NCBI GenBank assembly: GCA_030747075.1
Contig: JASLLL010000030.1
Location: 1-29,086 of the forward strand
Direction of reading: 5' to 3'
Length of the DNA: 29,086 bases
Source: Gemmatimonadota bacterium
GTDB lineage: Bacteria > ARS69
Position 1 is the first letter of the stretch; every line of letters begins with the position of its first letter. Under the pieces are notes generated by a model that saw nothing but the letters and a program-made list of their open reading frames with translations, had not been told where the DNA came from and did no database searches. Positions 9,985-27,907 of this stretch are shown piece by piece. A program made the translations under genes and the position numbers.

Positions 9985-11271
9985 CTAGACCCTTCGCCCC
10001 CCGCGCACGACGACGCTTCCGCTCTTCACGACATCCCGCACGAGGTTCGTGCCGAAGCGGTACGGCACGCAACGATAGTCGGGGGTGTCCAGCACAAGCA
10101 GATCCGCCTGCTTCCCCGGTGCCATGCTGCCGATCCGGTCCGCGCGGTCCAGCGCATACGCCGCGTTCACGGTGGCTGCCGAGAAGGCCTCGGACGGCGT
10201 CATCCCGAGATGCAGGCAGGCCAGCCCGATCACGACACCCATCGAATCCACGGCGCAACTCCCCGGGTTGAGATCGGTGGCAATGGCCAGCGCCACGCCT
10301 TCGTCGATCAGGCGCCGGGCATCGGCTCCGGGAATCCGCAGCGAGAAGGTGGTCCCGGGAAGGACCGTGCCGACCGTATCCGATCCGGCAAGCGCCCGAA
10401 CGCCCGCGTCCGAGACCGCGCTCAGGTGATCGGCGGACTTCGCGCCCAGTTCCACCGCCAGTTCCGCCGCGCCTGACGGAGCGAACTCATCCGCGTGAAT
10501 GCGCGGCTTCATCCCGTGCGCGGCGGCGGCCTGCATCACGCGCCGGGCCTGATCGACGGTGTAGACACCCTCCTCGCAGAAGACATCCGCGTACTCCGCA
10601 AGCCCGGATTCGGCCACGGCGGGGATCATCTCTTCCATGAGAAGGCGAACATAGGCTTCGTGATCCTTCGCGAACTCCTCGGGAAACTCATGCGCTCCGA
10701 GGAAGGTGGCCACCGTGTCCACCGGGTGCCCCGCCGACGCCCGGCTCAAGGCGCGGAGCTGCTTGAGCTCGTGTTCGGTGGACAGTCCGTACCCGCTCTT
10801 GCACTCCACGGTCGTCGTGCCGTGCAGCAGCAGAAGGTCGAGTCGTCTGGTGGCAATGCGGACCAGTTCGTCTTCGGATGCGGCTCGGGTATGCCGGACT
10901 GACGACCGGATCCCTCCGCCGGCGGCGGCGATCTCGAGGTAGCTCTGCCCGAGCAGGCGCCGCTCAAACTCGTCGTGGCGGGAACCTCCGAACGCCAGAT
11001 GCGTATGGGAATCCACGAACCCGGGAGTCACCGTGCACCCGGATGCGTCGATCCGGGTCGCGCCGGGCGAAACCTCCACCGCGCCCTCCAGATCCCCCGC
11101 CGGACCCGCCCAGAGGATCTCCCCCGCCGCGCAGGCCACCGACGCTTCCCTCACGGAACCGACGCGTCGCAGGTCTTCTCTGCGTCGCGGAACGGTGGCG
11201 CCGGCCTCCTCCAGCGTCAGGACTTCGGCCGCGTTCTCGATGACGAGATCGGCGTTTGCCGTCCCCCTCAC
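9985..11271 (-). CDS. hutI: Imidazolonepropionase (HutI)
   Basis: A 428-residue amidohydrolase that hydrolyses imidazolone-5-propionate to N-formimidoyl-L-glutamate in histidine degradation. Diagnostic segments are the metal-binding [46 protein letters not shown] and ATDLNPGS, ending with [11 protein letters not shown]. The length is typical. The start is GTG at 11271, which overlaps the TGA of hutU (GTGA), so the two are translationally coupled. The first ~40 residues include an extra arginine-rich stretch ([11 protein letters not shown]) before the metal-binding region. HutH and the later formimidoylglutamate enzymes are not in the window. Confidence 0.97.
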
Positions 11272-12935
11272 GAGGTGATCCCCGGCAGATCGATCCCCTT
11301 CTCGCGGGCGACAGCGACCGCGTCTTCGTATCCGGCATCCGCGTGGCGCATCACCCCGGTCCCCGGATCGGAAGTGAGCACGCGCTCAAGCCGCGCGGCA
11401 GCCTCCTGGGTTCCGTCCGCCACAATCACCATCCCCGCGTGGAGGGAGTTGCCGATCCCCACGCCGCCACCGTGATGGAAGCTGACCCAGGTCGCGCCGC
11501 ACGCCGTATTGAGCAGCGCGTTCAGGATGGGCCAGTCGGCGATGGCATCGCTTCCGTCCGCCATGCCCTCGGTCTCCCGGTAGGGAGACGCCACGGACCC
11601 GCAGTCCAGATGATCGCGGCCGATGACAATCGGTGCCGAAACGCGCCCCGAAGCCACCAGTTCGTTGAAGATGAGACCCGCCTTCGCACGGTCGCCGTAA
11701 CCCAGCCAGCAGATGCGGCATGGCAACCCCTGAAAGGCGACACGCTCCGCAGCAATGGGAAGCCAGCGCGCCAGCACGCGATCCTCGGGGAAGGCTTCGA
11801 GAAGTGCTTCGTCGGTGGCGGCAATGTCGGCCGGATCGCCGGACAGGGCGCACCATCGGAAGGGGCCTTTGCCTTCGCAGAAGAGAGGGCGGATGAACGC
11901 CGGAACGAAGCCGGGATAGGCGTAAGCGTCCTCCATCCCGCCTTCCTCCGCAGCCCCGCGAAGGTTGTTCCCATAGTCGAAGACCACCACGCCGCGTGTC
12001 TGGAAGTCGCGCATGGCCGTCACATGGCGCACGGCCGTCTCACGCGCGCGGCGGACATATTCCCGCGGGTCCGACTTCCGGAGATCCAGCGCGTCCGGGT
12101 AGGGAATCCCGGCGGGAACATATCCGTCGAGGAGGTCGTGGGCGGAGGTCTGGTCCGTCACGAGATCCGGCGCGGGACCGTTGGCGAGGACGGTCTCGAA
12201 CAGGTCCGCCGCGTTCGCGTGGACGCCGATCGACAGAGGCTCCTTCCGCTCCAGCGCCTCCCGGGCCAGGGCCGCCGCCTCTTCCGCGGTCTCGGCCACG
12301 CGGTCGAGATAGCGTGTCTCGACCCGGCGTCGAATCCGGTCCGCATCCACTTCCGCGACGAGTGCTACGCCGCCCGCCATCGTCACGGCCAGTGGCTGCG
12401 CGCCGCCCATTCCGCCAAGGCCCGCGGTCAGCACAAGCCGCCCGTGCAGATCACCGCCAAAGTGCTTCTCCGCGGCAGACATGAAGGTCTCGTAGGTGCC
12501 CTGGAGAATCCCCTGCGTGCCGATGTAGATCCAGCTTCCGGCAGTCATCTGGCCGAACATGGTGAGGCCCTTCCGCTCCATCTCGCGGAAGTGATCCCAG
12601 TTTGCCCAGCGGCCGACCAGGTTGGCGTTGGCGATGAGGATTCTCGGAGCGTCGGGGCCGGTCTTGAACACACCCACCGGCTTCCCCGACTGCACGAGAA
12701 GCGTTTCGTCATCGCCGAGCCGGCGGAGCGTCGCCACGATGTCGTCAAACGCCTTCCAGCTGCGAGCCGCTTTTCCCGAGCCTCCGTAAACGATGAGCTG
12801 ATCGGGAAGTTCGGCCACTTCCGGGTCCAGGTTGTTCATGAGCATGCGAAGCGCGGCCTCCGTCTGCCAGGACCGGCAGGACATTTCCGCACCCCGCGGA
12901 GCGCGCACCACGCGCGCTGAACTGGTGGATTCCAT
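11268..12935 (-). CDS. hutU: Urocanate hydratase (HutU)
   Basis: A 555-residue cytosolic NAD+-dependent enzyme that converts urocanate to 4-imidazolone-5-propionate, the step before HutI. Family landmarks are visible: [14 protein letters not shown] near the N-terminus, [18 protein letters not shown] (here GSWIYIG), the nucleotide-binding [13 protein letters not shown], the catalytic cysteine in [13 protein letters not shown], and [19 protein letters not shown] near the C-terminus. Length is the usual ~555. The ATG at 12935 has GGAGGG about 8 bases upstream and a strong promoter 30 bases upstream. It is the first gene of a hutUI pair on the strand opposite to the surrounding respiratory genes. 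Confidence 0.98.
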
Positions 12936-12964
12936 GAGAGCCCTCCGGAAACGCGTTTCGGGCC

Positions 12965-12993
12965 AGCCTAGAGGAGCGGCGGGCCCGCGTCAA
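12965..12993 (-). promoter_or_regulatory. Promoter of the hutUI operon
   Basis: On the minus strand TTGACG (12988-12993), a 17-base spacer and TAGGCT (12965-12970) end 29 bases before the hutU start. It matches the 2279-2307 promoter in -35 sequence and spacing. I see no clear HutC operator palindrome overlapping it. Confidence 0.75.
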
Positions 12994-13105
12994 CGCACGC
13001 CCTCCGGGGGGAGGTCCAGAAAAGCCCAAAGTCCTCCGGAGCTGCTGCCGAAACAGACCATGAAGCCCGGAACCGGGCACATCGACCCTTGGGAGCCACT
13101 GGAAC

Positions 13106-13735
13106 ATGATCCGATCGTCCCGTCCGTCAGACCGGCGCTCGTCCGTGCGTGGAGTCCTGCTCTGCGGGGTTCTCCTGAGCATCCTGTCTCTCGCGCCCGC
13201 CGCGGCAAGCATGGCGCCGTGCCTCTCCGCCGACTCCGCAGCGGAGTACCAGGAGTCCGGCGTGTATACGGACTACTGGAAATACACGATCCAGATCTCG
13301 TGGACCTGCGCCTGCGACGAAGTGACAAAGCTCATTCTGGATCTGGGGACCGATCCGTGCAACTGCGCCTGCGACGAGGGCGTTCTCTTCGACCTCCTCC
13401 CGGGGGCCACCACCGGCACGCCTCCTCAGTGCACCAGCTACTACGACGCCGAGGTTCTCTGCGCGGGGGACAGCAGCAATCCCTGGCAGAGCGGACCCGC
13501 ACTGGCGTGGACGCCTGACGGGGCCTCCTGTGCGCCCGGATCGGTGGGTTCCGGTACGCTCACCTTCTTCTCGCTCCTGCCCCCGGCCCCGGCAACGGGC
13601 GAGGCCAACTTCTTCGTGGAGTTCGGGGAACCGCTCGGATGGGGGGTCGTCAGCGGGAACCTGCCGGATTGCACGAGTTGCAATACCGGCCTCCAGGAAG
13701 CCTCCTGGGGCCGCGTAAAGTCGTTCTACCGCTAG
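13106..13735 (+). CDS. Secreted cysteine-rich protein of unknown function
   Basis: A 209-residue protein with a basic N-terminus and a signal peptide (VLLCGVLLSILSLAPAAAS). The mature part has 11 cysteines, several in the repeated patterns WTCACDE and CNCACDEG, then CTSYYDAEVLC, SCAPGS and DCTSCN. It lacks CXXCH, so it is not a heme c protein, and no enzyme motif is recognisable. The many cysteines in an exported protein suggest disulfide-stabilised extracellular or periplasmic folds, or metal binding. GGAG precedes the ATG at 13106. It lies alone between divergent hutU and the multiheme cytochrome, with no convincing promoter box upstream. I do not recognise the family. Confidence 0.65.
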   Translation: MIRSSRPSDRRSSVRGVLLCGVLLSILSLAPAAASMAPCLSADSAAEYQESGVYTDYWKYTIQISWTCACDEVTKLILDLGTDPCNCACDEGVLFDLLPGATTGTPPQCTSYYDAEVLCAGDSSNPWQSGPALAWTPDGASCAPGSVGSGTLTFFSLLPPAPATGEANFFVEFGEPLGWGVVSGNLPDCTSCNTGLQEASWGRVKSFYR

Positions 13736-13794
13736 TTCCGCGTCGGCGCGCGGCCGGGAACACCCGCCCGTCCCCCTCCTTCCAGGCATGATCG

Positions 13795-13824
13795 TTGGCC
13801 GAATCGACCGGCTCCCCGCATATT
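13795..13824 (+). promoter_or_regulatory. Candidate promoter of the multiheme cytochrome gene
   Basis: TTGGCC (13795-13800) and CATATT (13819-13824) are 18 bases apart; a TATTGT two bases further on would give a spacer of 20. The -10 region ends about 42 bases before the GTG at 13867. The -35 also reads as a TTG in frame with the gene, but a start there would put a long unlikely segment before the signal peptide. Confidence 0.4.
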
Positions 13825-13866
13825 GTGGAGTTCCTGGTCGGCTTTGTCCCTGGAGGGCTATTCCCC

Positions 13867-16665
13867 GTGGCAACTCGCGTTCTTCCGTCCCCGCACTGTC
13901 TTCTCCCGGCGCTGCTTCTGTTTCTCCTGCTTTTCCCCTCTTCGGCTTCTTCCCAGACCAACGAAGACTGCCTTGACTGTCACGACGATCCCGAACTGAC
14001 CACCGAGCGCGCCGGTCAGGAAGTCCTGCTCCATGTGGAGCCGGGGGATTACTCCACCAGCATTCACGGCGACATGGATTGCGTGGACTGCCACGAGTCC
14101 CTCTTCGATGTGGAGCTTCCGCACGAAGAAGAGGTGGAGCCGGTCGAATGCTCCACCTGTCACGATGACGAGGCCGAGGCGCACGCAGCCAGCCTGCACG
14201 GGAAGGCGGCGGCTCGCGGGGATGAGTTTGCGCCGGAGTGCCGGGACTGTCACGGAACGCACAATGTCCTTCCAGACACCGACCCCGCCTCCCCCACCTC
14301 GACGCTCAACATCCCGCTCACCTGCGGAAAGTGCCACCACGAAGGCTCCTCCGTATCCATAACCCACGACATCCCGCAAGACCGCATTCTGGAGAACTAC
14401 TCGCTGTCCATCCACGGACGGGGCCTCTTCGAAAAGGGACTCACCGTGACGGCGGTCTGTACCTCCTGCCATACCGCACACGACATCCTCCCCCACACGG
14501 ACCCCGCCTCCAGCATTCACGCGGACCGGGTCGCCGAAACCTGTCTGGCCTGCCACTCGCGGATCGAAGAGGTTCACCGGAAGGTCATCGATGGGGAACT
14601 CTGGCGGGAGGCGCCGGGACGGATTCCGGCCTGTGTGGACTGCCACGCCCCGCACAAGATCCGAACGGTGCGTTATCCGCAGGGAATGTCCACGGCGGAC
14701 TGCCTCACCTGCCACGCTTCCCCCAGACTCGCGTCCGATGCGGACGGGGCGGCCGCGCCCCTGGTCGATGAGCATGTCTACCTCGCCTCCAGCCATGGCG
14801 GGCTCGGTTGCGCTCAGTGCCACACGGGAGTCTCCACCTCCAGCGAGCGCGCCTGCGAGACGGAGACGGAACCGGTCCACTGTGCCATCTGCCACGCGGA
14901 GGAGGTGGACCAGTACTCAACGAGCACGCACGGAACGCTCCGCGCCGCCGGAGACCCGGACGCGCCCTCCTGCATGGACTGCCACGATCCCCACGCGACG
15001 CTGGACCGCCGGAACCCGGCCTCGAACACTTTCCCGAAGAATGTCCCTGAACTCTGCGCCCGCTGCCATCGGGCCGGAGAAGATGCGGCCGTGCGCATCG
15101 ACTCGGAGATCTCGGATATCGTGGAGAGCTACTCCATGAGTATCCACGGAAAGGGCCTTTTCGAGAGCGGGCTGCTGGTGACCGCCACCTGCACGGGTTG
15201 CCATACGGCGCACGGTGTCCTGCCGCCGGATGACCCCGGCTCCACCATCCACCGGGACCGGGTGGCGGAGACTTGCGGGAGCTGTCACCACGGCATTCGG
15301 GAGACATTCCGCAACAGCATCCACTCCCCGTTGGGAAACCCGGAGGCGAACACGGCGGACCTTCCCTCCTGCGAAGACTGTCACTCTTCCCACACGATCA
15401 CCCGGACGGACAACGACGACTTCCGTCTTCGGATGATGGACCAGTGCGGTCGCTGTCATGAGGATGAAGCCCACACCTTCTTCGACACCTTCCACGGAAA
15501 GGTGTCCCGCCTTGGCGCTGCCGGGGCCGCGAAGTGTTACGACTGTCACGGAACGCACGGCATCCTCCCGGTGGAGCATGTCGAATCCTCGCTCAGTCGG
15601 ACGAACATCGTGGGAACCTGCGGGCAGTGCCACGAGGGGTCCCACCGGCGCTTCGCCGGATACCTCACGCACGCGACCCACCACGACCCGGAGAAGTACC
15701 CGTATCTCTTCTGGGCTTTCTGGGCGATGACCGGGCTCCTGGTCGGCACGCTGACCTTCGCCATTCTGCACACGCTGGCGTGGCTCTTCCGGCTCTGGCG
15801 CACCCGCAGCGAATGGCAACCCGTAAAGAGAGCCACCGGCGAGAAGTTCTATCGCCGGTTCACCAAGCGCCAGCGAACGATGCACCTGTTCATGATCCTC
15901 AGTTTCTTCACGCTCTCCGCAACGGGCATGAGCCTCAAGTTCTCGTATGCAAGCTGGGCACAGAACTTTGCCGCGGCATTGGGCGGGTTCGCAGTCACCG
16001 GATTCCTGCACCGCGTGGGTGCGGTGGTTCTCTTTGCCGTCTTCGCCGTTCATCTCTTCGAAGTCGCGAAAGACCGAAGGAAATCCGGGAAGGGATGGGG
16101 TTCCTACATTACCGGCCCCGATTCCATGCTGTTCAATCGGACGGATCTCCTCGAACTCATCGAATCGGTGAAGTGGTTCCTCGGCCGTGGCCCCCGACCG
16201 GACTACGGTCGATTCACCTACTGGGAGAAGTTCGATTACTTCGCGGTGTTCTGGGGAGTCGCCATCATCGGCATGACCGGGCTTGCGCTCTGGTTCCCGG
16301 AGTTCTTCACACGCTTCATCCCCGGATGGTCGATCAATGTCGCCACGATCATCCACAGCGATGAAGCACTTCTCGCCGTCGGCTTCATCTTCACCGTGCA
16401 CTTCTTCAACACTCACTTCCGCCCCGACAAGTTCCCGATGGACCCGGTCATCTTCCACGGGCGCGTTCCCCTGTCGGAGTTCAAGCACGACAAGCCGCGC
16501 GAGTACCGGGAGAGAGCCGAGAGCGGGACACTGGACGATCATCTGGTCGGGCCCGTTCCCCCATGGACAGAGCGGATCTTCCGTGGGTTCGGGTTCCTCT
16601 TCCTCGCCATCGGACTGCTGATCATCGGGCTCATTGTGGCCACGATGGTCTTCCAGTACCGGTAG
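13867..16665 (+). CDS. 19-heme cytochrome c fused to a cytochrome b membrane domain
   Basis: A 932-residue protein. A signal peptide (LLPALLLFLLLFPSSASS) leads to a periplasmic region with 19 CXXCH motifs, the first at residue 35 and the last at 585. From about residue 612 there are five to six membrane helices. Candidate b-heme histidines are in RTMHLFMILSFF, FLHRVGAVVLFAVFAVHLFE, IIHSDEALLAVGFIFTVHFFNTHF. The pattern resembles the cytochrome b561/HupC/FdnI-type subunits that exchange electrons with quinones. Inferred role: quinol dehydrogenase passing electrons into a long c-heme wire, or the reverse. The GTG at 13867 is chosen because GGAGGG (13852-13857) lies 9 bases upstream and gives a normal signal peptide. 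It is transcribed alone, between a candidate promoter and a strong hairpin at 16684. No catalytic reductase domain is visible. Confidence 0.9.
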   Translation: MATRVLPSPHCLLPALLLFLLLFPSSASSQTNEDCLDCHDDPELTTERAGQEVLLHVEPGDYSTSIHGDMDCVDCHESLFDVELPHEEEVEPVECSTCHDDEAEAHAASLHGKAAARGDEFAPECRDCHGTHNVLPDTDPASPTSTLNIPLTCGKCHHEGSSVSITHDIPQDRILENYSLSIHGRGLFEKGLTVTAVCTSCHTAHDILPHTDPASSIHADRVAETCLACHSRIEEVHRKVIDGELWREAPGRIPACVDCHAPHKIRTVRYPQGMSTADCLTCHASPRLASDADGAAAPLVDEHVYLASSHGGLGCAQCHTGVSTSSERACETETEPVHCAICHAEEVDQYSTSTHGTLRAAGDPDAPSCMDCHDPHATLDRRNPASNTFPKNVPELCARCHRAGEDAAVRIDSEISDIVESYSMSIHGKGLFESGLLVTATCTGCHTAHGVLPPDDPGSTIHRDRVAETCGSCHHGIRETFRNSIHSPLGNPEANTADLPSCEDCHSSHTITRTDNDDFRLRMMDQCGRCHEDEAHTFFDTFHGKVSRLGAAGAAKCYDCHGTHGILPVEHVESSLSRTNIVGTCGQCHEGSHRRFAGYLTHATHHDPEKYPYLFWAFWAMTGLLVGTLTFAILHTLAWLFRLWRTRSEWQPVKRATGEKFYRRFTKRQRTMHLFMILSFFTLSATGMSLKFSYASWAQNFAAALGGFAVTGFLHRVGAVVLFAVFAVHLFEVAKDRRKSGKGWGSYITGPDSMLFNRTDLLELIESVKWFLGRGPRPDYGRFTYWEKFDYFAVFWGVAIIGMTGLALWFPEFFTRFIPGWSINVATIIHSDEALLAVGFIFTVHFFNTHFRPDKFPMDPVIFHGRVPLSEFKHDKPREYRERAESGTLDDHLVGPVPPWTERIFRGFGFLFLAIGLLIIGLIVATMVFQYR
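13969..15633 (+). repeat. Duplicated eight-heme module within the multiheme cytochrome
   Basis: Hemes 1-8 (13969-14700) and 9-16 (14701-15444) align one to one: CLDCHDDPEL with CLTCHASPRL, CRDCHGTHN with CMDCHDPHA, CTSCHTAHDIL with CTGCHTAHGVL, and DRVAETCLACH with DRVAETCGSCH. The segment YSLSIHGRGLFEKGL recurs as YSMSIHGKGLFESGL. Hemes 17-19 (15445-15633) resemble hemes 3-5 (FHGKVSRLG with LHGKAAARG; CYDCHGTHGIL with CRDCHGTHNVL), i.e. a partial third copy. The repeat is seen in the protein; the DNA copies have diverged. Confidence 0.85.
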
Positions 16666-16796: not shown

Positions 16797-19700
16797 ATGC
16801 GTCGAGTTTCCGCGGCCCGGGTTTTGAGCGCGGGTGTCATCGCCCTGGGGTTTGGACTGCCCTGGCTGGCGTCGTCTGACGCCGCGGAGGGTTATCTGCG
16901 CACGCCCGATCTCCACGGCAATGCTGTCGTCTTCTCGGCGGAAGGAGATCTCTGGACAGCGCCGGTCACGGGCGGGAAAGCCCGTCGCATCACTTCCCAC
17001 GATGGCGCCGAGTACTTCCCGCGATTCTCGCCGGACGGACAGACGCTGGCCTTCACGGGAGAGTACGACGGAAACCGCGATGTGTTTGTCATGCCCGCGG
17101 ACGGGGGCGAACCCCGCCGCATCACCTGGCACCCCGGGTCGGATGAAGTGCTCGGGTGGACGCCGGACGGTTCCGACATCCTCTTCCGAAGCCGACGCCA
17201 CCACCCGCACGGAGACTGGGAGATCTTCACGGCACCCACCGGCGGAGGGGACGCCGAAGTCCTCCCCATCGGCCGGGCGTCTCGCGTGGCGATGGATCCC
17301 GAAAGCGGACTGTGGGCGTTCAATCGACTCAACCGCGAGCGGCGCACCTGGAAGCGCTACCGGGGAGGTTCGAACCAGGATCTGTGGGTCGGGCACCCGG
17401 ACCGGGCGGACTTTCGGCGGGTGACGGATTTCACCGGCACGGACGCCATGCCGATGTGGCGGGACGGGCGCGTGTGGTTCGTCAGCGACGAGGGCGGCAC
17501 CGGCAACCTCTGGTCGATGACCCCCGACGGCGGAGACCGAACCCGCCATACCAATGAAGACGGGTGGGACATCCGCTGGCCATCGATGGCTCCGGATGGG
17601 CGGATCGTGTTCATGCTGGCGGGAGGGGTGTCACTCTTCGACCCGTCCGACGGTTCGGAGCGGACGCTTTCGATCGACCTTCCCTCCGAGCGCAAGCTCA
17701 CGCGGCACCGGTACGCGGATGCGAAGGCCACGCTCACCTGGTTCGACCTCTCCCCGGATGGCGAACGCCTGGCCGTGACCACGCGGGGCGAGGTTTTCTC
17801 CGTTCCGGTGGAAGAAGGCGTCACACTTCCGGTCACGCGGGGCAGCGGCGCGCGAGAAAGCTGGGCAAGCTATGGATCGGACGGGGAGACCGTCCTCTAT
17901 GTCAGCGACGAGGGCGGCGAAGAGTCCATTCGCTCCCGCGACGCATGGGGCCGGGGCGAGGAAACCGTGCTGCAACCCGCAGGGGAAAAGGGGTGGCACT
18001 TCCCGCCCCGGCCGTCTCCCGATGGAGAGTGGGTAGCCTGGTCCGACGAGACGCAGACGCTTTTCGTCGCGCCTTTGAAGGGCGGACGCGCGCGCACCGT
18101 GGATCACTCCGAACAGGAGGAGATTCGCGACTACGCGTGGAGTCCTGACGGGCGCTGGCTGGCCTATGTGAAGGTTCCCTTTACGGACTTTCGCTCCGTC
18201 TTCCTCTACGACACACGGGATGATGAGACCCGGCGCGTCACGCCGACCACCACCGACGACTTCGCGCCCGCCTGGGATCCGGACGGCCGCTACCTTCACT
18301 TTCTGAGCAATCGGACCATGAACCCGGTGCTCGGCGGCCGGGACTTCCGCGATGTCGAACTGAAGATGACCAGACCGTACCTCTTCCTCCTTCGCCCGGA
18401 TGTGGAGAATCCCTTCGCGCCGAAGACGGGACTGCCCGGCGATGAAGATGAAGAAGAGGACGCGGATGATGACAACAAGAGCGACGAAGACGACGGGGAC
18501 AAGGACGATAAGCCGGACCCCGTGGAGATCGACTTCGAAGGGCTGGAGAATCGGTTTGTCGTACTGGATGTGCCCGCCGGGATCTACAGCGACCTCGCCG
18601 CAACCGGCGAACGCGTCTTCTACCTGTCCCGGCCCATCCGGGGAATGGCCGAGCGGTCCTCCGGAAAGAGCGGGCCGCCCTCTTCGCTGATGGCATTCCA
18701 TCTCGAGGAGGAAGAGGCGGAGGTGTTCCTGGGCGGCGTGTCGGACTTCGATCTGGAGGCGGGAGCGGAGAAGATCGCCATTCGGAAGAAGCGCGGAGAG
18801 TACTTCGTGGTGGATGCCGGATCGCCGCCGGGCGAGGACCTGGAGGACGCCGCCGTCTCGCTGGACGACATCGTGATCGAACTGGACCCACGGGAAGAGT
18901 GGCGACAGATCTACCTGGAGGGGTGGCGCCACATGCGGGACTTCCACTGGGACGCCGGCCTGTCCGGCGTGGACTGGAAGGCCACGCGCGACCAGTACGC
19001 GACACTGCTGGAGAGAGTCTCCACCCGCGACGACCTGCGTGACCTCATGGGGGAGGTCATCGGGGAACTGGCCACTTCGCACACCTATGTGTGGGGCGGA
19101 GACCGCGGGGTTCGCGTGAAGCGCGTGTCCACCGGTCTTCTCGGCGCGGACTTCGCGCGGGACGGGGACACCTTCCGCGTGGAGAAGATCTATCGGGGCG
19201 ACGCGGCGGATGAAGATCGCTCGCCGCTGGTCGAGCCGGAGGTGAGTGTTCGCGAGGGCGACCATCTCCTCGCGGTGAACCATGTTCCGTTCCGCGAAGA
19301 CCAGCCGCTGCACGCCGCCTTCGAGAATCTCGCGGGACGGGAAGTGCTGCTCACGGTAGCGGAGAATGCTCGCGGAAAGAACTCGCGGGAAGTCGCCGTC
19401 ACGACGCTGGGCGGTGAGCGACGCCTCCGTTACATCGACTGGGTGCGGAAGAACCGCGAGACCGTCGCCGAGATGACGGACGGTCGGATCGGCTACATCC
19501 ATGTGCCGAACATGGGCACGCAAGGGCTGGTGGAGTTCCACCGATGGTTCTACCCGCAGCTGGACCGCGAGGGAATGATCGTGGACTGCCGGTGGAACGG
19601 CGGCGGCTTCGTCTCGCAACTGCTGCTGGAACGCTTCCGCCGGACGCTCGTGAGCTTCGACCGTTCCCGAGGCGGCGGGGTCTGGACCTATCCGTACCGG

Positions 19701-20117
19701 ATGCTGAACGGGCCGTTCGTGGTTCTGACCAACGAGCGGGCGGGCTCCGACGGCGACATCTTCCCGATGGCCGTACAGCTCGACGGACTGGCGCCGGTGA
19801 TCGGGCAGCGTTCGTGGGGAGGCGTGGTCGGCATCCGAGCGGACAAGCGACTGGTGGACGGCGGTGGCCTCACGCAGCCGGAGTACGCATGGTGGGATCC
19901 GGTTCAGGGATGGTCGCTGGAGAACCGGGGCGTGATCCCCGACATCGAAGTGGTAAATCCACCCGCGGATGTCGCCGCAGGGCGGGACCCCCAGCTGGCC
20001 AGAGCGATCGAAGAGGTGCTGCGACTCCACGCGGAGCACCCCCCGGTCGAAGCGAAGTTCGGGCCGGCGCCGGTGAAGTCGCGGCGTGCGTTCCAAGACA
20101 GAGAGCCCGGACGCTGA
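16797..20117 (+). CDS. Secreted tricorn protease homologue (S41 family)
   Basis: A 1106-residue serine peptidase. A signal peptide (VLSAGVIALGFGLPWLASSDA) is followed by propeller repeats with DPD-G/SPDG turns (FSPDGQTLAF; LSPDGERLAV; WSPDGRWLAY). A helical/PDZ region comes next and then the C-terminal catalytic domain. Catalytic residues are readable: H762 (TSHTYVW), nucleophile S984 with D985 (AGSDGDIF) and E1042 (ENRGVIPD). The S-to-E distance of 58 equals that in Thermoplasma tricorn (S965, E1023). Tricorn-type enzymes cut peptides into small fragments; the signal peptide places this one in the periplasm or outside. Residues about 548-575 form a highly acidic insert (DEDEEEDADDD). GGAGG precedes the ATG at 16797. 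The heme A synthase gene starts one base after its stop. Confidence 0.93.
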   Translation: MRRVSAARVLSAGVIALGFGLPWLASSDAAEGYLRTPDLHGNAVVFSAEGDLWTAPVTGGKARRITSHDGAEYFPRFSPDGQTLAFTGEYDGNRDVFVMPADGGEPRRITWHPGSDEVLGWTPDGSDILFRSRRHHPHGDWEIFTAPTGGGDAEVLPIGRASRVAMDPESGLWAFNRLNRERRTWKRYRGGSNQDLWVGHPDRADFRRVTDFTGTDAMPMWRDGRVWFVSDEGGTGNLWSMTPDGGDRTRHTNEDGWDIRWPSMAPDGRIVFMLAGGVSLFDPSDGSERTLSIDLPSERKLTRHRYADAKATLTWFDLSPDGERLAVTTRGEVFSVPVEEGVTLPVTRGSGARESWASYGSDGETVLYVSDEGGEESIRSRDAWGRGEETVLQPAGEKGWHFPPRPSPDGEWVAWSDETQTLFVAPLKGGRARTVDHSEQEEIRDYAWSPDGRWLAYVKVPFTDFRSVFLYDTRDDETRRVTPTTTDDFAPAWDPDGRYLHFLSNRTMNPVLGGRDFRDVELKMTRPYLFLLRPDVENPFAPKTGLPGDEDEEEDADDDNKSDEDDGDKDDKPDPVEIDFEGLENRFVVLDVPAGIYSDLAATGERVFYLSRPIRGMAERSSGKSGPPSSLMAFHLEEEEAEVFLGGVSDFDLEAGAEKIAIRKKRGEYFVVDAGSPPGEDLEDAAVSLDDIVIELDPREEWRQIYLEGWRHMRDFHWDAGLSGVDWKATRDQYATLLERVSTRDDLRDLMGEVIGELATSHTYVWGGDRGVRVKRVSTGLLGADFARDGDTFRVEKIYRGDAADEDRSPLVEPEVSVREGDHLLAVNHVPFREDQPLHAAFENLAGREVLLTVAENARGKNSREVAVTTLGGERRLRYIDWVRKNRETVAEMTDGRIGYIHVPNMGTQGLVEFHRWFYPQLDREGMIVDCRWNGGGFVSQLLLERFRRTLVSFDRSRGGGVWTYPYRMLNGPFVVLTNERAGSDGDIFPMAVQLDGLAPVIGQRSWGGVVGIRADKRLVDGGGLTQPEYAWWDPVQGWSLENRGVIPDIEVVNPPADVAAGRDPQLARAIEEVLRLHAEHPPVEAKFGPAPVKSRRAFQDREPGR

Positions 20118-20118
20118 C

Positions 20119-21384
20119 ATGGGCGCGCTGGTTGCAGGACTCGGGATCACGGTTGCGCTGGCGGGGACGGGCTTCCTGTTCCGAATCCCCCCCGCCACTC
20201 TCCCCGGGCCAGCTCTCCTCGGGGTCCTTGCCGCGCTGGTGGTCGTCGGAGGAGGGTTTGCGGCCCGGGCATCCGGCGACGGCATCCGCGCCGGGATGGC
20301 CGCCGGGTTCTCAACTTCGGTGTGGAGCCTGCTCCTTCTCGGGGGAGTTCTCGGTGGCGCCTCCCCGAACAGCATGGCTGCGGACCGCATTCTCTGGATC
20401 CCCGGCTTTCTCGGAACCTGCACGCTGCTCGGGGGAATCGGAGCGCTTCCCGTGCGCCGGGCGACGGGCACCCGCCCCGACTGGCTGGCACTCCACGCAC
20501 GGGTCACGGTGGCGGCCACGGGCTTTCTTGTTCTCATCGGCGGTCTCGTCACCACCCACGGCGCCGGACTGGCTGTCACCGACTGGCCGAACTCCTTCGG
20601 CTACAGCATGTTCCTCTACCCCTTCTCGCGGATGGTCGGGGGGATCTTCTACGAGCACTCGCACCGGGTGTTCGGCTCCCTTGTAGGACTGGCGACGCTG
20701 ACCCTGGCCATTCACGCATTCCGGGCGGATTCCAGGCGCGGGGTTCGGATTGCGGGGGTGGCTGCGCTGGGGTTTGTGATCCTCCAGGGCATCCTTGGAG
20801 GGCTCCGCGTGACGGGGCACTTCACCTGGAGCGCGTCGCCGGAGGAAACCGCCCCGAACCTCCTGCTGGCCGTACTGCACGGGGTTTCCGGGCAGGTGTT
20901 CTTCGCCTTCATGGCGGTGTTCGCCGCAGTGACCTCCCGCGCGTGGAAGACGCTTCCCTCCCCCGGCGAGAGTCGCCCGACGGCATGGGCGAAGACCCTG
21001 CCCGCGCTGGCCGTACTCACGCTGCTCCTTCAGATCGCCCTCGGGGCAAGAGTCCGGCATACCGGACAGGGGCTGATCGAGCACTTTGCGTTTGCCGCAG
21101 TGGCGGCCGGGTTCGCGGTGGCCACCGGCGCACACTCACTGAAGACAACCCGCGACCCGCGTTCGGCCCGATCCGTATGGGCAGGCGCGCTGGTGGGGCT
21201 GATCGGCATACAGATTCTCCTCGGCTTCGGAATCTTGCGCGGGTGGGGCTGGGGCGCGGCGGAAGCTCTCCCCTTCCGGGTCCGCGCTCTGGTGGAAACG
21301 GCCCACCAGACAGTCGGGGCGCTGCTTCTGGGAAGCGCGGCACTGCTGGCCGCCTGGGGGCGAAGGCGGCCGCCGGAAGCCTGA
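20119..21384 (+). CDS. ctaA: Heme A synthase (CtaA/COX15) with extra N-terminal membrane region
   Basis: A 421-residue membrane protein that oxidises heme O to heme A, the cofactor of the CoxA encoded in this window. The CtaA core starts near residue 120: LALHARVTVAATGFLVLIGGLVTTHGAGLAV-type helix, DWPNSFGYSMFLYP, the conserved EHSHRVFGS, LHGVSGQVFF, and a late AHQTVGALLL histidine. Residues 1-120 add about four hydrophobic helices rich in Gly/Ala (ALLGVLAALVVVGGGF; VWSLLLLGGVLGGA) that are not part of the usual eight-helix enzyme. The ATG at 20119 is one base after the tricorn stop; a longer frame would overlap that gene. Heme O synthase (ctaB) is not in the window. Confidence 0.88.
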   Translation: MGALVAGLGITVALAGTGFLFRIPPATLPGPALLGVLAALVVVGGGFAARASGDGIRAGMAAGFSTSVWSLLLLGGVLGGASPNSMAADRILWIPGFLGTCTLLGGIGALPVRRATGTRPDWLALHARVTVAATGFLVLIGGLVTTHGAGLAVTDWPNSFGYSMFLYPFSRMVGGIFYEHSHRVFGSLVGLATLTLAIHAFRADSRRGVRIAGVAALGFVILQGILGGLRVTGHFTWSASPEETAPNLLLAVLHGVSGQVFFAFMAVFAAVTSRAWKTLPSPGESRPTAWAKTLPALAVLTLLLQIALGARVRHTGQGLIEHFAFAAVAAGFAVATGAHSLKTTRDPRSARSVWAGALVGLIGIQILLGFGILRGWGWGAAEALPFRVRALVETAHQTVGALLLGSAALLAAWGRRRPPEA

Positions 21385-21584: not shown

Positions 21585-22247
21585 GTGCACGAAGATCGAC
21601 GAACGCAGCTTCTGCCCTCCTGGGTGGATGGCGCCCTCAAGATCGGGGGGGTGCTTCTCGTACCCGGGCTGATCTACGCCGTGGCGCTGGCGTATTACGG
21701 GACCAGTCCGCAGACGATGGACATCGGATACGAACCGCCGCAACCCGTCCCCTACAGCCATGCACTCCATGCGGGAGAACTGGAGATTGACTGCCGGTAC
21801 TGCCACGACACCGTGGAACGGGCAGCCCACGCGGCCATCCCCCCGACGGAGACCTGCATGAACTGCCACTCCACCATTCGCACCGAGAGCGAAAAACTGG
21901 CGGTCGTCCGGGAGAGCCACGCCACGGGAATGCCCATTGAGTGGCTGCGAGTCCATGATCTTCCGGACTTTGTCTATTTCGACCACAGCGCCCATGTGCG
22001 GCGTGGTGTCGGTTGCGAAGAGTGCCACGGCCCGGTCGACCAGATGGAAACGGTGTACCAGTACGCCCCGCTCAGCATGAGCTGGTGCCTGAAGTGCCAC
22101 CGAGACCCGACCGAACGCCTTCGTTCTCCGGAACTGGCGACGACCATGAGTTGGGACCCCGGGGAGGACCGCGCGGCTCTCGGCGCGGCGCTGGCCCGTG
22201 AAAACAACATTCACCCCTCGACGGACTGCTCCACATGCCATCGATGA
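21585..22247 (+). CDS. actA: Alternative complex III subunit A, pentaheme cytochrome c
   Basis: A 220-residue protein with one N-terminal membrane helix (GVLLVPGLIYAVALAYYG) and five CXXCH sites: CRYCH (residue 70), CMNCH, CEECH, CLKCH and CSTCH at the very C-terminus. This is the ActA pattern; it carries electrons from the iron-sulfur subunit to periplasmic cytochromes or directly to the oxidase. Characteristic segments include PQPVPYSHALHAGELEIDC and HDLPDFVYFDHSAHV. The start is GTG at 21585 with GGAAAG five bases upstream. It is first in the act operon and its TGA overlaps the actB ATG. Confidence 0.95.
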   Translation: MHEDRRTQLLPSWVDGALKIGGVLLVPGLIYAVALAYYGTSPQTMDIGYEPPQPVPYSHALHAGELEIDCRYCHDTVERAAHAAIPPTETCMNCHSTIRTESEKLAVVRESHATGMPIEWLRVHDLPDFVYFDHSAHVRRGVGCEECHGPVDQMETVYQYAPLSMSWCLKCHRDPTERLRSPELATTMSWDPGEDRAALGAALARENNIHPSTDCSTCHR

Positions 22248-25200
22248 ACACCGGAGCCAGCCGGACCTGGCGCACGCTGGAGGAATACGCGGGAACCCCC
22301 GAGTTCCAGGATCTCGTGGAACGGGAGTTTCCGAGCCTCTTGCCGGAAACCCATTCGCCCGCGTCCCGAAGGCAGTTCCTCAAGGTCATGGGCGCGTCTG
22401 TGGCGCTGGCGGGTATGGCGGGGTGTCGCTGGCCCCAGGAGACGATCGTCCCCTTCGCCAGCCGTCCGAAAGGACTCACGCCGGGGGTGCCGCAGCACTT
22501 TGCCACGGCGATGGACCTCTCCGGTGCAGCCCGTCCGCTGATTGCGACAAGCTACGACGGCCGCCCGGTCAAGCTGGAGGGGAACCCGGAACATCCCGCC
22601 AGCCTGGGCGGCGCGGATCTCCTGTCGCAAGCGGCCATTCTGGGACTTTACGACCCGGAGCGAAGCCGACATCCGATCCTTCGCGACGGAGGCGGAACCG
22701 GTTCCTCCCGCACGGTGGAGGACTTTCTTCAGGAAGCCCGTGCGCATTTTCGCACACTCGGCGCAAGCGGCGGACAGGGTCTTCGGGTCCTCTCGGAAGC
22801 CTCGTCCTCGCAAACACTGGCCCGGATGAAGCGGGAGTTCCTGCACGCCTTCCCGAAGGCGGTCTGGCACGAGTACGATCCCCTCTCCAGAGATGCCGAG
22901 CGCGAAGGCACCCGGACGGCTTTCGGTACCCCGTATCGTCCCCACTACTCGATGGATGCGGCAGAGGTCATTGTCTCGCTCGGCGCGGACCTACTGGGAT
23001 CACACCCGGAATCGGTGAGAAACGCCCGGGACTTCGCCTCCCGGCGGCGTGCCGCCGACGGCACGATGAACCGGCTGTATGTGACCGAGAGCCGATTCAC
23101 GATCACCGGCGGGCAGGCGGACCATCGTCTCCCGGTGACGGAGGCGCGGATTGCGTCCCTTGCGTGGGCGGTTGCGAACGGTGTCTTCTCGTCGGGAGAG
23201 GTGTCGATTCCGGCGGCCGCCTCGGCTCTTCGCGATCGGATCGGAAGCGTTCATGTCGCCGACTCCGAGGCGAAGGTTGTGGCGGGAATGGTCCGGGACC
23301 TTCTCGCGCATCGGGGACACGGGATGGTCGCGGCCGGGCCGGGACAGGGCGCGGATGTTCACGCGCTGGCGCATCTGCTGAATGTCGCGCTTGGGAATGC
23401 CGGCGGCCCGGTGACCTACACCGCGGACCCGGACCCGGATCGCGAGACCCATGTCGCGTCCATCGGGTCGTTGGCCACCGCCGCCGCCTCGGGGCAGGTG
23501 GAGACGCTGGTCATCCTGGGCGGGAACCCGGCTTATGACGCCCCCGCGGACCACCGTTTCGCGGACGCGCTGACCCGGGTACCCCACGCCATCCACCTCT
23601 CGCTGTACGATGACGAGACCTCGCGCGCCTGCCGGTGGCATCTTCCGCGCACGCACTTCCTCGAAAGCTGGGACGACGCCGCCACATGGGATGGAACCGC
23701 CTCGGTGGTTCAGCCGCTGATCGCCCCGCTCTACGGCGGGTGGACTCCGGCGGAGCTGATCGCGTTCCTCGCAACCGGAGAATCGGCCCGCGGACACGAC
23801 CTCGTCCGTCAGACTTGGCGCGACGCTTCAGAGGGAGACGCCGCCTTCGATCAGCATTGGCGCCGCGTTCTCCACGACGGCTTCGCGGCGGATCGCAGGC
23901 GGGAGAGCATGGTCCCGTCAGTGACGGGTGGTTCGTGGGATGCCGTGAAGAGCCCGGACACCGCTCCGGGGATCGGGATGGAGGTCGTCTTCGCGGGAGA
24001 TGCGTGCCTCCACGACGGCCGGTTTGCGAACAACGGGTGGCTGCAGGAACTCCCGGATCCTTCCACGAAGCTCACCTGGGGCAATGCGGCGCTCATCGCT
24101 CCGTCGGATGCCGGTGGACTCCGCACCGGAGATGTGGTCCGCCTCTCCCGGGGAGGCCGGTCGATGGAGATCCCGGCCATGATCCTCCCGGGACAGGCGA
24201 AGGGTTCGGTGGCCGTGGCGCTGGGGTACGGCCGAACCCGTGGAGGGCAGGTTGCGGAAGGGGTCGGGGCCGACGGCTATGCGTTCCGCACTTCCGATCT
24301 CCAGGGGTACGCGAGCGGCGTTCTCATGGAAAAGACCGGACGCCGTGCGAAGCTCGCGGTCACGCAGGAACACCACATCCTGGACGATACCACCCAGGGA
24401 CGCGGTGAGGCCGCCCGCCTCCCGACCCTCTATCGGCAGGGAACACTGAGCGAGTTCCGCCACGACCCCGCCTTCGCCCGGCACATGGACCATCACCCGC
24501 CGCTCAAGTCGCTGTGGAAGGAGCACTCCTTCGACGGGCATCTGTGGGGCATGAGCATCGACCTCACCGCGTGCAACGGATGCAGCGCGTGCGTCGTGGC
24601 GTGTCAGGCAGAGAACAACATCCCGGTGGTCGGGCCACGAGAGGTGGCCAACGGGCGGGAGATGCACTGGCTGCGCGTGGACCGCTACTTCACCGGCGAC
24701 CCGGATGACCCGGAAGTGGGGCATCTGCCCGTACCGTGCCAGCAGTGCGAGAATGCGCCGTGCGAGCAGGTCTGCCCGGTGGCCGCCACGACGCACACGG
24801 AAGAGGGCCTGAACGACATGGTCTACAACCGGTGCATCGGCACGCGGTACTGCCTGAACAACTGCCCGTACAAGGTGAGACGGTACAACTGGTTCCACAA
24901 CACGAAGGACCAGGAGGGCGTCCGGCAGATGGCCAACAACCCGGAGGTCACGGTCCGCACGCGCGGAGTGATGGAGAAGTGCACCTACTGCGTGCAGCGC
25001 ATCACGGCAGTCCGCATTCAGGCGAAGAATGACGGGCGGCCGATCACCGACGGGGAGATCACTCCGGCATGCGCACAGACATGCCCGGCCAAGGCCATCG
25101 TCTTCGGAGACCTCTCGGATCCGGACAGTCGCGTGCAGAGTCTTCGCGAGGACGGCCGCTCCTATGTCCTCCTGGAGGAACTGAACATTCGACCCAGAAC

Positions 25201-25285
25201 CAGTTACCTGGCGCGCCTTCGGAATCCCGGAGACGGCCAATCCGCGGCGTCCGGAGATCACGGGCACCAGGACCATCGGGGCTGA
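22244..25285 (+). CDS. actB: Alternative complex III subunit B, molybdopterin-like/iron-sulfur protein
   Basis: A 1013-residue Tat-exported protein. The twin-arginine motif SRRQFLKVMG and hydrophobic stretch end in MAGC, which could be a lipobox. The first ~700 residues resemble a molybdopterin oxidoreductase (GRPVKLEGNPEHP; ITGGQADHRLPV) without a recognisable cofactor-binding cysteine set, as in other ActB. The C-terminal part carries four ferredoxin-type sites: CNGCSACVVAC, CQQCENAPCEQVC, CIGTRYCLNNC (three cysteines) and CTYCV...CAQTC, fitting three [4Fe-4S] and one [3Fe-4S]. It moves electrons from quinol oxidised at ActC to ActA. The start at 22244 gives an ATGA overlap with actA; an ATG at 22235 is also possible, and neither has a clear ribosome site. 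Confidence 0.95.
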   Translation: MNTGASRTWRTLEEYAGTPEFQDLVEREFPSLLPETHSPASRRQFLKVMGASVALAGMAGCRWPQETIVPFASRPKGLTPGVPQHFATAMDLSGAARPLIATSYDGRPVKLEGNPEHPASLGGADLLSQAAILGLYDPERSRHPILRDGGGTGSSRTVEDFLQEARAHFRTLGASGGQGLRVLSEASSSQTLARMKREFLHAFPKAVWHEYDPLSRDAEREGTRTAFGTPYRPHYSMDAAEVIVSLGADLLGSHPESVRNARDFASRRRAADGTMNRLYVTESRFTITGGQADHRLPVTEARIASLAWAVANGVFSSGEVSIPAAASALRDRIGSVHVADSEAKVVAGMVRDLLAHRGHGMVAAGPGQGADVHALAHLLNVALGNAGGPVTYTADPDPDRETHVASIGSLATAAASGQVETLVILGGNPAYDAPADHRFADALTRVPHAIHLSLYDDETSRACRWHLPRTHFLESWDDAATWDGTASVVQPLIAPLYGGWTPAELIAFLATGESARGHDLVRQTWRDASEGDAAFDQHWRRVLHDGFAADRRRESMVPSVTGGSWDAVKSPDTAPGIGMEVVFAGDACLHDGRFANNGWLQELPDPSTKLTWGNAALIAPSDAGGLRTGDVVRLSRGGRSMEIPAMILPGQAKGSVAVALGYGRTRGGQVAEGVGADGYAFRTSDLQGYASGVLMEKTGRRAKLAVTQEHHILDDTTQGRGEAARLPTLYRQGTLSEFRHDPAFARHMDHHPPLKSLWKEHSFDGHLWGMSIDLTACNGCSACVVACQAENNIPVVGPREVANGREMHWLRVDRYFTGDPDDPEVGHLPVPCQQCENAPCEQVCPVAATTHTEEGLNDMVYNRCIGTRYCLNNCPYKVRRYNWFHNTKDQEGVRQMANNPEVTVRTRGVMEKCTYCVQRITAVRIQAKNDGRPITDGEITPACAQTCPAKAIVFGDLSDPDSRVQSLREDGRSYVLLEELNIRPRTSYLARLRNPGDGQSAASGDHGHQDHRG

Positions 25286-25288
25286 TCC

Positions 25289-26734
25289 ATGACGACGATG
25301 CTCAATCGCATTCCGGACAACACCTCGGACGATCCGCAACACCGCCCGGATCTCGTCCTTGGCGGCCACGGCTTCATGTCGTTGACCGACAAGGTCTGCG
25401 GAATCGTGGAGAACCGGAAGACCCCGCGCGCATGGTGGGTGCTCTTCGGCATCTCGCTGTCGCTGACCGGGCTACTGGGCGCAATGATCGCGTACCTGTT
25501 CATCAAGGGAGTCGGCATCTGGGGAGTCAACAACCCGGCGGGTTGGGGCTTCGCCATCGTCAACTTCGTCTTCTGGGTCGGCATCGGGCATGCGGGCACG
25601 CTGATCTCCGCAATCCTCTACCTCTTCCGCCAGAAATGGCGAACGGGGATCAATCGATTCGCCGAAGCCATGACGATCTTCGCGGTGATCTGCGCCGGGA
25701 TCTTCCCGGGGATCCATGTCGGACGCGTATGGCTGATCTTCTTCATCTTCCCGTACCCGGACCAGATGCTGAACATGTGGCCGAACTTCCGGAGCCCACT
25801 GCTCTGGGATGTGTTTGCCGTGGGCACATACTTCACGGTTTCGCTGCTCTTCTGGTACATGGGCATGATCCCGGACATCGCGACGCTCCGGGACCGCGCA
25901 ACGACCCGCACGCGGGAACTCGCGTACGGACTACTGGCGCTGGGCTGGCGAGGATCCAACCGGCACTGGCAACGATACGAGCGCGCCTATCTGTATCTGG
26001 CCGCGCTGGCTGCCCCGCTGGTGCTGAGCGTACACTCGGTGGTTTCGTTCGACTTCGCGGTCTCGCTGATCCCGGGGTGGCATACAACCATTTTCCCGCC
26101 CTACTTCGTGGCGGGCGCCATCTTCAGCGGATTCGCCATGGTCGTGACGCTGATCATCCCGGCAAGGAAGTTCTTCGGGCTGGAGGAAATCGTCACGCTC
26201 CATCATCTGGAGAACATGAACAAGATCATCCTGGCGACGGGCTCTATCGTCGGGTACGCCTACTCCATCGAGTTCTTTATCGCGTGGTATGGCGGGAATC
26301 CATACGAGTCATTCATCTTCCTGAACCGCGCATTCGGTCCGTACGGATGGGCCTACTGGATCATGGTCTCCTGCAATGTGCTCGTCCCGCAGGTGTTCTG
26401 GTCGAAGCGCGCACGCACCAGCATCCCCGTCATGCTGAGTGTCGCCATCCTCGTCAATGTGGGGATGTGGTTCGAGAGGTTTGTGATTGTGATCTCTTCG
26501 CTGACGGCGGACTTCCTGCCGTCCAGTTGGGGGCTGTTCGTTCCGACACCGGTGGACATCCTCACCTTCCTCGGGAGCTTCGGCCTTTTCTGCACGCTGT
26601 TCCTTCTGTTCGTTCGATTCCTGCCGATGATCGCCATGGCGGAGGTCAAGGGCGTCATGCCCCAGTCCCACGCGCACGGCCACGACCACGAAGTCGGTGA
26701 GAAACAGATGGCGGAAGCTCGGGGAGATTCCTGA
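25289..26734 (+). CDS. actC: Alternative complex III subunit C, NrfD-like quinol-binding membrane protein
   Basis: A 481-residue integral membrane protein with about ten helices, of the NrfD/PsrC fold. Typical features are the N-terminal amphipathic segment, [30 protein letters not shown] (a conserved histidine region near the quinol site), [28 protein letters not shown] and [21 protein letters not shown]. It binds no heme and provides the menaquinol-oxidising site and possibly proton paths. It starts 3 bases after actB, and its TGA overlaps the actD ATG (TGATG). A histidine-rich C-terminal tail (SHAHGHDHE) is present. Confidence 0.96.
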
Positions 26735-27294
26735 TGGCCGCCCGTCACTCCTCTGGTAGCGAAGACACCCGTCTGTCCGGGTACCTCGTCGAGTTTGAAA
26801 CGCCCGGCGGACTGCTTCGCGCGTGCGAGGAAGTCCGTGACCATGGCTTCTCCCGGTGGGACGCGCACTCGCCGTTCCCGGTGCATGGACTGGACGCAGC
26901 CATGGGGCTCAAGCCGACGATCCTCCCGTGGGTCGTGGCCGGTGGTGGTGCCACAGGCTGCGGCCTGGGGCTTCTCCTCCAATGGTGGACGAACGCGCAC
27001 GACTATCCCTTCCTGATCAGCGGGAAGCCGTTCTTCGGCATCCCGGCCGTGATCCCGGTGACCTTTGAGTTGACCATTCTGCTGTCTGCATTCGGCGCAT
27101 TCTTCGGAATGCTTCTCCTGAACGGATTTCCACGGTTTCACCACGCCGTCTTCTCCAGCCAGCGGTTCCGGCGAGTGACGCAGGATCGCTTCTTCATCAG
27201 CGTGGAAGCACGAGATCCCAAGTTTGATGCGAACGGGACCAAGGCGTTCCTCAGCACCCTGGGCGGAACCCGGGTCGAAAGACTGGAGGGCTGA
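26734..27294 (+). CDS. actD: Alternative complex III subunit D (DUF3341)
   Basis: A 186-residue protein with an N-terminal soluble domain (LVEFETPGGLLRACEEVRDHGFSRWDAHSPFPVHGLD), two membrane helices (WVVAGGGATGCGLGLLLQWW; VTFELTILLSAFGAFFGML) and a C-terminal soluble part with DRFFISVEARDP. This matches the DUF3341 family, the ActD scaffold subunit, which carries no cofactor. The segment after helix one (YPFLISGKPFFGIPAVIPVTFELT) is characteristic. Start and stop are set by overlap with actC and the 4-base gap to actE. Confidence 0.95.
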   Translation: MAARHSSGSEDTRLSGYLVEFETPGGLLRACEEVRDHGFSRWDAHSPFPVHGLDAAMGLKPTILPWVVAGGGATGCGLGLLLQWWTNAHDYPFLISGKPFFGIPAVIPVTFELTILLSAFGAFFGMLLLNGFPRFHHAVFSSQRFRRVTQDRFFISVEARDPKFDANGTKAFLSTLGGTRVERLEG

Positions 27295-27298
27295 CGCC

Positions 27299-27907
27299 AT
27301 GCCGAAATGGATCCCGCCTGCCGTGATCGTGTTGATCGCTGTGTCACTGGTTCCGGCGGCTCTCATCAAGCGAGCCCGCTCCACGCACTCGCCGGTGCCG
27401 CGCATCAACATCATCCCGGACATGGACAGCCAGCCGAGCTTCCGGGCGCAGTCCGCCAACGGAATGTTCGCGGACGGACGCGGCATGCGTGCGCCGGTCG
27501 AGGGGACCGTTGCGCGGGGAATGCTGGAAGCGGACGATCACTTCCACCGGGGCATCGTGGCCGATGACTGGGCGGACCAGATTCCCGAAGACGCGGGGGT
27601 GGACCTCGCCGAGCGCGGACGGGAGCGGTACGGAATCTACTGCACGCCCTGCCATGGAGCGCAGGGGAACGGCGACGGACCGGTGGCACTGCGAGCGGAC
27701 AAGTTGGCAGAGGGCACCTGGACGCCGCCGACCTCCCTCCACGACAGCCTTGTGAGAGACCGCCCGGAGGGACACATCTTCAACACGATTACCCGCGGGA
27801 TCCGAAGCATGCCCTCCTACGGCGTGCAGATCCCAGCGGCGGATCGCTGGGCAATCGTGGCCCATGTTCGGGCACTTCAGGCCGAAGGTCAGGAGTCCAT
27901 TCGATGA
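27299..27907 (+). CDS. actE: Alternative complex III subunit E, monoheme cytochrome c
   Basis: A 202-residue protein with a short N-terminal hydrophobic anchor (WIPPAVIVLIAVSLVPAALI) and one heme c site, C115-T-P-C-H119 within YGIYCTPCHGAQGNGDG. The likely distal methionine is in GIRSMPSYG. INIIPDMDSQPSFRAQS is typical of ActE. It is one of the c-type electron exits of ACIII. There is no lipobox cysteine after the hydrophobic segment, so it is probably anchored by the helix rather than by lipid, unlike some homologues. The ATG at 27299 is chosen because GGAGG lies upstream and it follows actD by 4 bases. Confidence 0.93.
   Translation: MPKWIPPAVIVLIAVSLVPAALIKRARSTHSPVPRINIIPDMDSQPSFRAQSANGMFADGRGMRAPVEGTVARGMLEADDHFHRGIVADDWADQIPEDAGVDLAERGRERYGIYCTPCHGAQGNGDGPVALRADKLAEGTWTPPTSLHDSLVRDRPEGHIFNTITRGIRSMPSYGVQIPAADRWAIVAHVRALQAEGQESIR

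Follow-up and report, generated by a model that had tools for sequence, protein, structure and literature searches.

A 19-heme cytochrome c fused to a membrane cytochrome b domain in a Gemmatimonadota genome: a probable quinol:cytochrome oxidoreductase from a long-armed branch of the CbcL/MtrH/MtoC family

The gene and its surroundings

The window analysed here, a stretch of 29,086 nucleotides, is contig C30 of a Gemmatimonadota genome of 2.67 Mb rated 100% complete; the host phylum is represented by five genomes in our genome set. Positions 13867..16665 of its plus strand hold an open reading frame of 932 amino acids that begins with GTG, has a Shine-Dalgarno-like GGAGGG (13852..13857, plus strand) 9 nt 5' of the start codon, and has full-length homologues at 44-62% identity. 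The first 30 residues (13867..13956, plus strand) form a hydrophobic, signal-peptide-like N-terminus with a hydropathy peak at residues 5-23. Exactly 19 CXXCH motifs span residues 35-589, against a mean of 0.11 and a maximum of 2 in 2000 shuffles of the protein, and no CXXCK or other odd heme motif was seen in it. Pfam returned multiheme c domains together with a weak match to Ni_hydr_CYTB (PF01292), while the NCBIfam matches, to a decaheme model and to formate dehydrogenase gamma (TIGR01583), were both weak.

Because full-length homologues exist, this cytochrome c/cytochrome b fusion is, judged from its sequence, a genuine single gene. An origin of the fusion in a frameshift or an assembly joint can be ruled out: it is intact in most of the best 80 species, and the two split cases (L057 and L082) are separate adjacent genes, with c parts of 669 and 672 aa that carry 19 hemes and b parts of 297 and 279 aa, respectively, an arrangement that fits two cooperating domains. 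The initial annotation of this DNA had described 19 CXXCH sites in one polypeptide with a C-terminal multi-helix part containing membrane histidines, and had named a frameshift between the c and b parts in related genomes as grounds for abandoning that description. The open frame, the motif count, six modelled helices and a match to FdnI (see below) bear the description out, and no such frameshift was found, the two parts being fused in nearly all relatives.

Upstream of the fusion gene, urocanase and imidazolonepropionase-like amidohydrolase genes of histidine degradation (9985-12935, minus strand) are followed by a gene for a 209-aa, secreted-looking Cys-rich protein (13106-13735, plus strand), which matches no Pfam family and lacks homologues near other 19-heme genes. 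Directly downstream lies a Tricorn-type S41 peptidase with a PD40 propeller (16797-20117, plus strand), which was not found next to the 19-heme gene in the best 80 relatives. A CtaA-like protein (20086-21384) precedes the ACIII genes actA-actE (21585-27907, plus strand), which encode a 5-heme c, an Fe-S/molybdopterin-like, an NrfD, an ActD and a mono-heme c protein and lie 5 kb downstream of the 19-heme gene. ACIII as a conserved partner was ruled out: L072 is the one locus of the 80 to match actC, and its actB-like match is weak; the other actB matches are generic Fe-S proteins. No carrier gene adjoins the 19-heme gene in the window.

The heme arm and the membrane domain

The c domain is composed of two parts. 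An 11-heme core (residues ~275-605; 14689..15681, plus strand), delimited by alignment and BLAST, is shared with 11-heme relatives, and its last hemes are also shared with CbcL-type proteins. Ahead of it stands an 8-heme unit (residues ~31-272; 13957..14682, plus strand), a tandem copy of the core's first eight hemes with 43.5% identity to the core over 239 aa; across ten proteins the mean identity between the unit and these eight hemes is 37%. The two 8-heme units resemble each other as closely as either resembles the 11-heme sister proteins, and the simplest reading of these alignments is that one tandem duplication turned 11 hemes into 19 (11 + 8).

In an alignment of 81 sequences, all 19 CXXCH histidines are invariant, and the c domain holds, outside the motifs, eighteen histidines with a conservation of at least 0.9 in addition to the invariant H602 and H605. 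By these counts, there is a conserved candidate for the distal histidine of each c-heme, which argues for a c domain that would serve as an electron-transfer wire rather than as a carrier of catalytic c-hemes. The best PDB profile match, which covers part of the c domain, is MtrA (6r2q_A; E 6.3e-11). MtrA differs in that it has ten hemes, lacks a b domain and is seated in an outer-membrane porin. None of the matches listed by VIA-align spans the N-terminal 8-heme unit.

Residues 612-932 (15700..16662, plus strand) make up a membrane cytochrome b domain of six helices with the FdnI fold, as recognized by AlphaFold, Foldseek, VIA-align and hhalign and by the weak PF01292 and TIGR01583 matches. 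The AlphaFold model, built on 56 sequences (mean pLDDT 79.7, pTM 0.50, with weak stretches at residues 230-274), places long C-terminal helices at residues 612-645, 667-691, 708-740, 785-809, 820-850 and 899-930. Its top Foldseek match is E. coli FdnI (1kqf_C; E 2.5e-4, TM 0.78 on target), to which VIA-align superposes 205 residues with Z 14.3 and an rmsd of 3.0 A. In the hhalign profile alignment, H673, H715, H830 and H845 fall on FdnI H18, H57, H155 and H169, which are reportedly the heme b ligands of that protein. All four are conserved at 0.99-1.0 in the 81 sequences. By conservation and profile alignment, His673 (15883..15885) and His845 (16399..16401) are the predicted heme b ligands on the cytoplasmic side, and His715 (16009..16011) and His830 (16354..16356) those on the periplasmic side, all on the plus strand. 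The charges of the loops point to the same topology, with an external c domain and the H673/H845 heme towards the cytoplasm. FdnI, the gamma subunit of formate dehydrogenase-N, thus shares the fold and all four ligand positions of the b domain; it differs in being a separate four-helix subunit docked on an Fe-S protein, whereas the 19-heme protein has extra helices at both ends and fused c-hemes.

Relatives and gene neighbourhoods

The relatives considered here are the best 80 from a scan of one genome per species, and essentially the whole query is covered in them. They carry 19 CXXCH motifs in 67 cases, 21 in six, 23 in three, 20 in one and 18 in one, two more being cut by contig ends. The window gene is therefore not a one-off heme expansion, and the suggestion in the initial annotation that a fusion with so many c hemes would be exceptional does not hold, given 67 of the 80 with exactly 19. 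These proteins come from about 20 phylum-level groups: Acidobacteriota, Gemmatimonadota, Woeseiaceae and Thiotrichales, Zixiibacteriota, Omnitrophota, Bacteroidota, Planctomycetota, Myxococcales, Ignavibacteria/Chlorobi, Hydrogenedentota, KSB1, Neomarinimicrobiota, Krumholzibacteriia, Calditrichota, Elusimicrobia, Eisenbacteria, Desulfobacterales, Aminicenantes, Latescibacterota and one Actinomycetota bin. The groups were read from record titles, mostly of metagenome-assembled genomes, so that single assignments may be wrong. Two named strains, Maribellus sp. YY47 and Draconibacterium aestuarii, are among the carriers. A search of a plasmid collection with the protein gave no match.

According to the survey by Zhong and Shi (2018, PMC6295460), homologues of CbcL, MtrH and MtoC occur in 15 phyla, are 416-1034 aa long with 3-23 CX2CH motifs, and mostly have six transmembrane helices and conserved b-domain histidines. 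The window protein combines a multiheme c and a membrane b domain in one chain, has six transmembrane helices and a HydC/FdnI-type b domain with conserved histidines, and is homologous to CbcL-type proteins across both its c and b parts; its 932 aa and 19 CXXCH motifs fall inside all the ranges given in the survey. Geobacter sulfurreducens CbcL, a menaquinol:cytochrome oxidoreductase of low-potential respiration, has the same plan, a multiheme c N-terminus joined to a diheme b domain of the HydC/FdnI type with six helices; its c-hemes are bis-His, where the 19-heme protein has, by count, one conserved candidate distal histidine per heme. It differs in having nine c-hemes instead of 19 and in lacking both the N-terminal 8-heme unit and the lengthened core. 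In the tree described below, the window protein falls beside the 9-heme clade and outside it. As stand-ins for Geobacter CbcL we used CbcL-type 9-heme proteins from a Desulfobacterota sample, chosen by architecture and not by name, which are strongly similar in the last three hemes and the b domain. Identity to 27 such nine-heme fusions is 35-39% over ~600 aa and rises to at most 47% when the comparison is restricted to the b domain and the three hemes preceding it, and all four b-domain histidines are shared. The Mco system of ANME archaea (PMC9012536) is comparable in that a cytochrome b is paired with a 7-11-heme c protein and oxidises a membrane electron carrier; by its description it differs in being archaeal, in consisting of two genes and in its VhtC-type b.

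A midpoint-rooted tree was built from the b domain together with the last three hemes. In it, the 43 proteins sampled from the 19-heme branch fall into a single clade (support 0.70) adjoining 11/12-heme and 9-heme CbcL-type proteins, while the 11/13-heme proteins that often neighbour the 19-heme gene form a second deep clade. On these alignments the 932-aa protein is a member of the known CbcL/MtrH/MtoC family, within a long-armed, very widespread and previously unnamed 19-heme branch. The available survey text (PMC6295460) makes no separate mention of a 19-heme clade, and our search of the openly readable literature met no account of a 19-heme c-b fusion and found neither this branch as a named or studied clade nor a description of its usual neighbourhood; the clade and its neighbourhood may be a new description. 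Nor did the search yield a characterised 19-heme family, the other finding that the initial annotation had named as a refutation.

The neighbourhood of the gene is rich in cytochromes in most relatives. Where at least 3 kb of sequence flanks the gene on either side (46 loci), another open reading frame with at least three CXXCH motifs lies within 3 kb in 38 cases. An 11/13-heme c-b paralogue recurs in 34 loci, and 27 loci encode a protein of ~500 aa that has 5-6 hemes and a NapC/NrfH-like portion; further recurring companions are a cytochrome b/Rieske/9-heme set and a c554-like protein with four hemes. The statement in the initial annotation that no partner lies beside the gene is thus accurate for this window and does not extend to relatives in general. 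In G013 a single same-strand run comprises genes for an MtrA-like protein (257.7 bits, cut-off 192.2), MtrB/PioB (312.3 bits, cut-off 240.05), Rieske, cytochrome b, 9-heme and NapC-like proteins, the 19-heme gene and an 11-heme c-b gene; in L093 a GSU2203-type decaheme and an MtrB-like porin lie directly upstream of the 19-heme gene. In two Gemmatimonadota loci, L026 and L036, the 19-heme gene is followed directly downstream by a porin-like beta protein and then a 16-heme cytochrome (13600-16439 and 12876-15727, respectively). The porin-like protein, which in L026 has no Pfam or NCBIfam match, gave a low-confidence all-beta model for which almost all listed matches are outer-membrane barrels, making the two genes a candidate porin-cytochrome pair. 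Since a confident MtrB match was obtained in 2 of 15 searched genomes, most of them carrying the 19-heme gene, MtrB-type exits are a minority feature of the 19-heme carriers.

Two other arrangements were observed. In the Bacteroidota/Prolixibacteraceae loci L088, L095-L098, L102 and L103, genes for a lipoprotein-like 6-heme protein, a 1-heme protein, a DUF5777 beta-barrel, a 7-heme protein and a NapC-like protein precede the 19-heme gene, which looks like a separate conserved export cassette. In L162 (G002:C262, 8018-11209), from the same family, a peptidyl-prolyl isomerase gene is followed by doubled-CXXCH cytochromes with 22 and 16 hemes, which are oriented divergently from the 19-heme gene and possibly represent a different export route.

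Electron flow and the role of the branch

We consider the window protein to be probably an inner-membrane quinol:periplasmic multiheme cytochrome oxidoreductase, one of the CbcL/MtrH/MtoC kind whose arm in the periplasm is enlarged. The FdnI-like diheme domain presumably binds quinone; quinol would dock near its inner heme b, and electrons would traverse the membrane via the two b hemes, held by H673/H845 and then H715/H830. They would then enter the 11-heme core and pass to the extra 8-heme unit, which may extend the arm further into the periplasm, and leave it for periplasmic multiheme carriers and, in some lineages, onward to an outer-membrane porin-cytochrome conduit. Because the multiheme c domain is fused to an FdnI-type, quinone-reactive b domain, such a putative route from the quinone pool to the periplasm would have no need of ACIII, and the proposal of the initial annotation that electrons bypass that complex gains support. 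Genetic evidence shows that low-potential extracellular respiration depends on CbcL, which hands its electrons to PpcA-type carriers (PMC9129911, PMC12307469), and by this analogy we infer that in the host, too, flow would be outward along the arm to periplasmic carriers.

The reverse direction, in which electrons from periplasmic or external donors (Fe(II), other cells or other cytochromes) reduce quinone at the inner heme b, as proposed for MtoC and as in FdnI with formate, is a less probable alternative. The inner, cytoplasmic-side heme b of FdnI serves quinone reduction and conserves energy, and the FdnI-like layout of the window protein puts its inner heme b on that same side; outward flow would be expected to cost membrane potential and inward flow to conserve it. 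Rieske/cytochrome b genes adjoin the 19-heme gene in several loci, Woeseiaceae and Gemmatimonadota are among the relatives, and MtrH/MtoC relatives are present in Fe(II) oxidisers, as reported in the survey (PMC6295460). The survey identified no sequence feature by which family members that oxidise quinol can be told from those that reduce quinone (Zhong and Shi, PMC6295460). Against the reverse direction, CbcL, the relative that has been studied best, oxidises quinol, and the window has no gene for a donor-oxidising enzyme beside the 19-heme gene.

Quinol oxidation towards periplasmic carriers, our preferred reading, has also to be squared with what the host retains. The partners known from other loci are scattered in its genome, with an intact Rieske/cytochrome b/9-heme set on contig C2 and an intact 4-heme c554-like gene on C6; the CXXCH pattern search of this genome covered contigs C1 to C18, and the remaining contigs were covered by a PF14522 search. 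An outer-membrane exit cannot be assumed in the host, since MtrB matches are as rare as noted above and no PF11854 match to an MtrB/PioB-type porin occurs in its genome. An 11-heme-type c-b paralogue survives on contig C4 (L157, G000:C4, 6723-7253) as a truncated piece of its b domain with ~62% identity to relatives; no c domain was found beside this fragment, which is likely a pseudogene. The genome further encodes, on contig C10 (L160, G000:C10, 2272-4359), a 695-aa protein in which an N-terminal membrane part (weak DUF4405) is fused to four c554-like c-hemes, a small c-b-like fusion without a name. That the 19-heme gene is itself a remnant, of little function, from an electron-export pathway that has since been lost would accord with the truncated paralogue, the scattered neighbours and the absent MtrB match, but we think it very improbable with the gene, the C2 set and the C6 gene all intact.

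Equally improbable is a terminal reductase that passes quinol electrons to a soluble substrate such as nitrite or sulfur compounds on the c domain, the initial annotation's second proposal (a reductase with an undescribed substrate): weak VIA-align matches to HAO-type enzymes and weak profile matches to NrfB and NrfA could be cited for it, but such a role is unlikely given that a conserved candidate for the second histidine is present at every c-heme, odd heme motifs are lacking, the top PDB profile match is a wire, MtrA, and middling Z values are common.

The window gene is one case of a conserved 19-heme architecture that recurs in many phyla, with at least two named isolates among its carriers. 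A broader and more tentative proposal is that the 19-heme branch constitutes a distinct respiratory module of single origin over about 20 phyla, usually accompanied by Rieske/cytochrome b/9-heme, NapC-like and 11/13-heme c-b genes, which might connect the quinone pool with the exterior over a long reach, possibly in either direction. It would do so in bacteria that are not regarded as electron exporters, among them lineages that lack MtrB-type conduits. If this is true, quinone-linked electron exchange with the periplasm or the exterior would be encoded in many Acidobacteriota, Gemmatimonadota, Zixibacteria, Calditrichota and Bacteroidota that are rarely discussed as electroactive. The internal 8-heme duplication raises the clear question whether a longer arm alters reach or midpoint potentials, and the cultured Draconibacterium and Maribellus carriers make this question of arm length testable.
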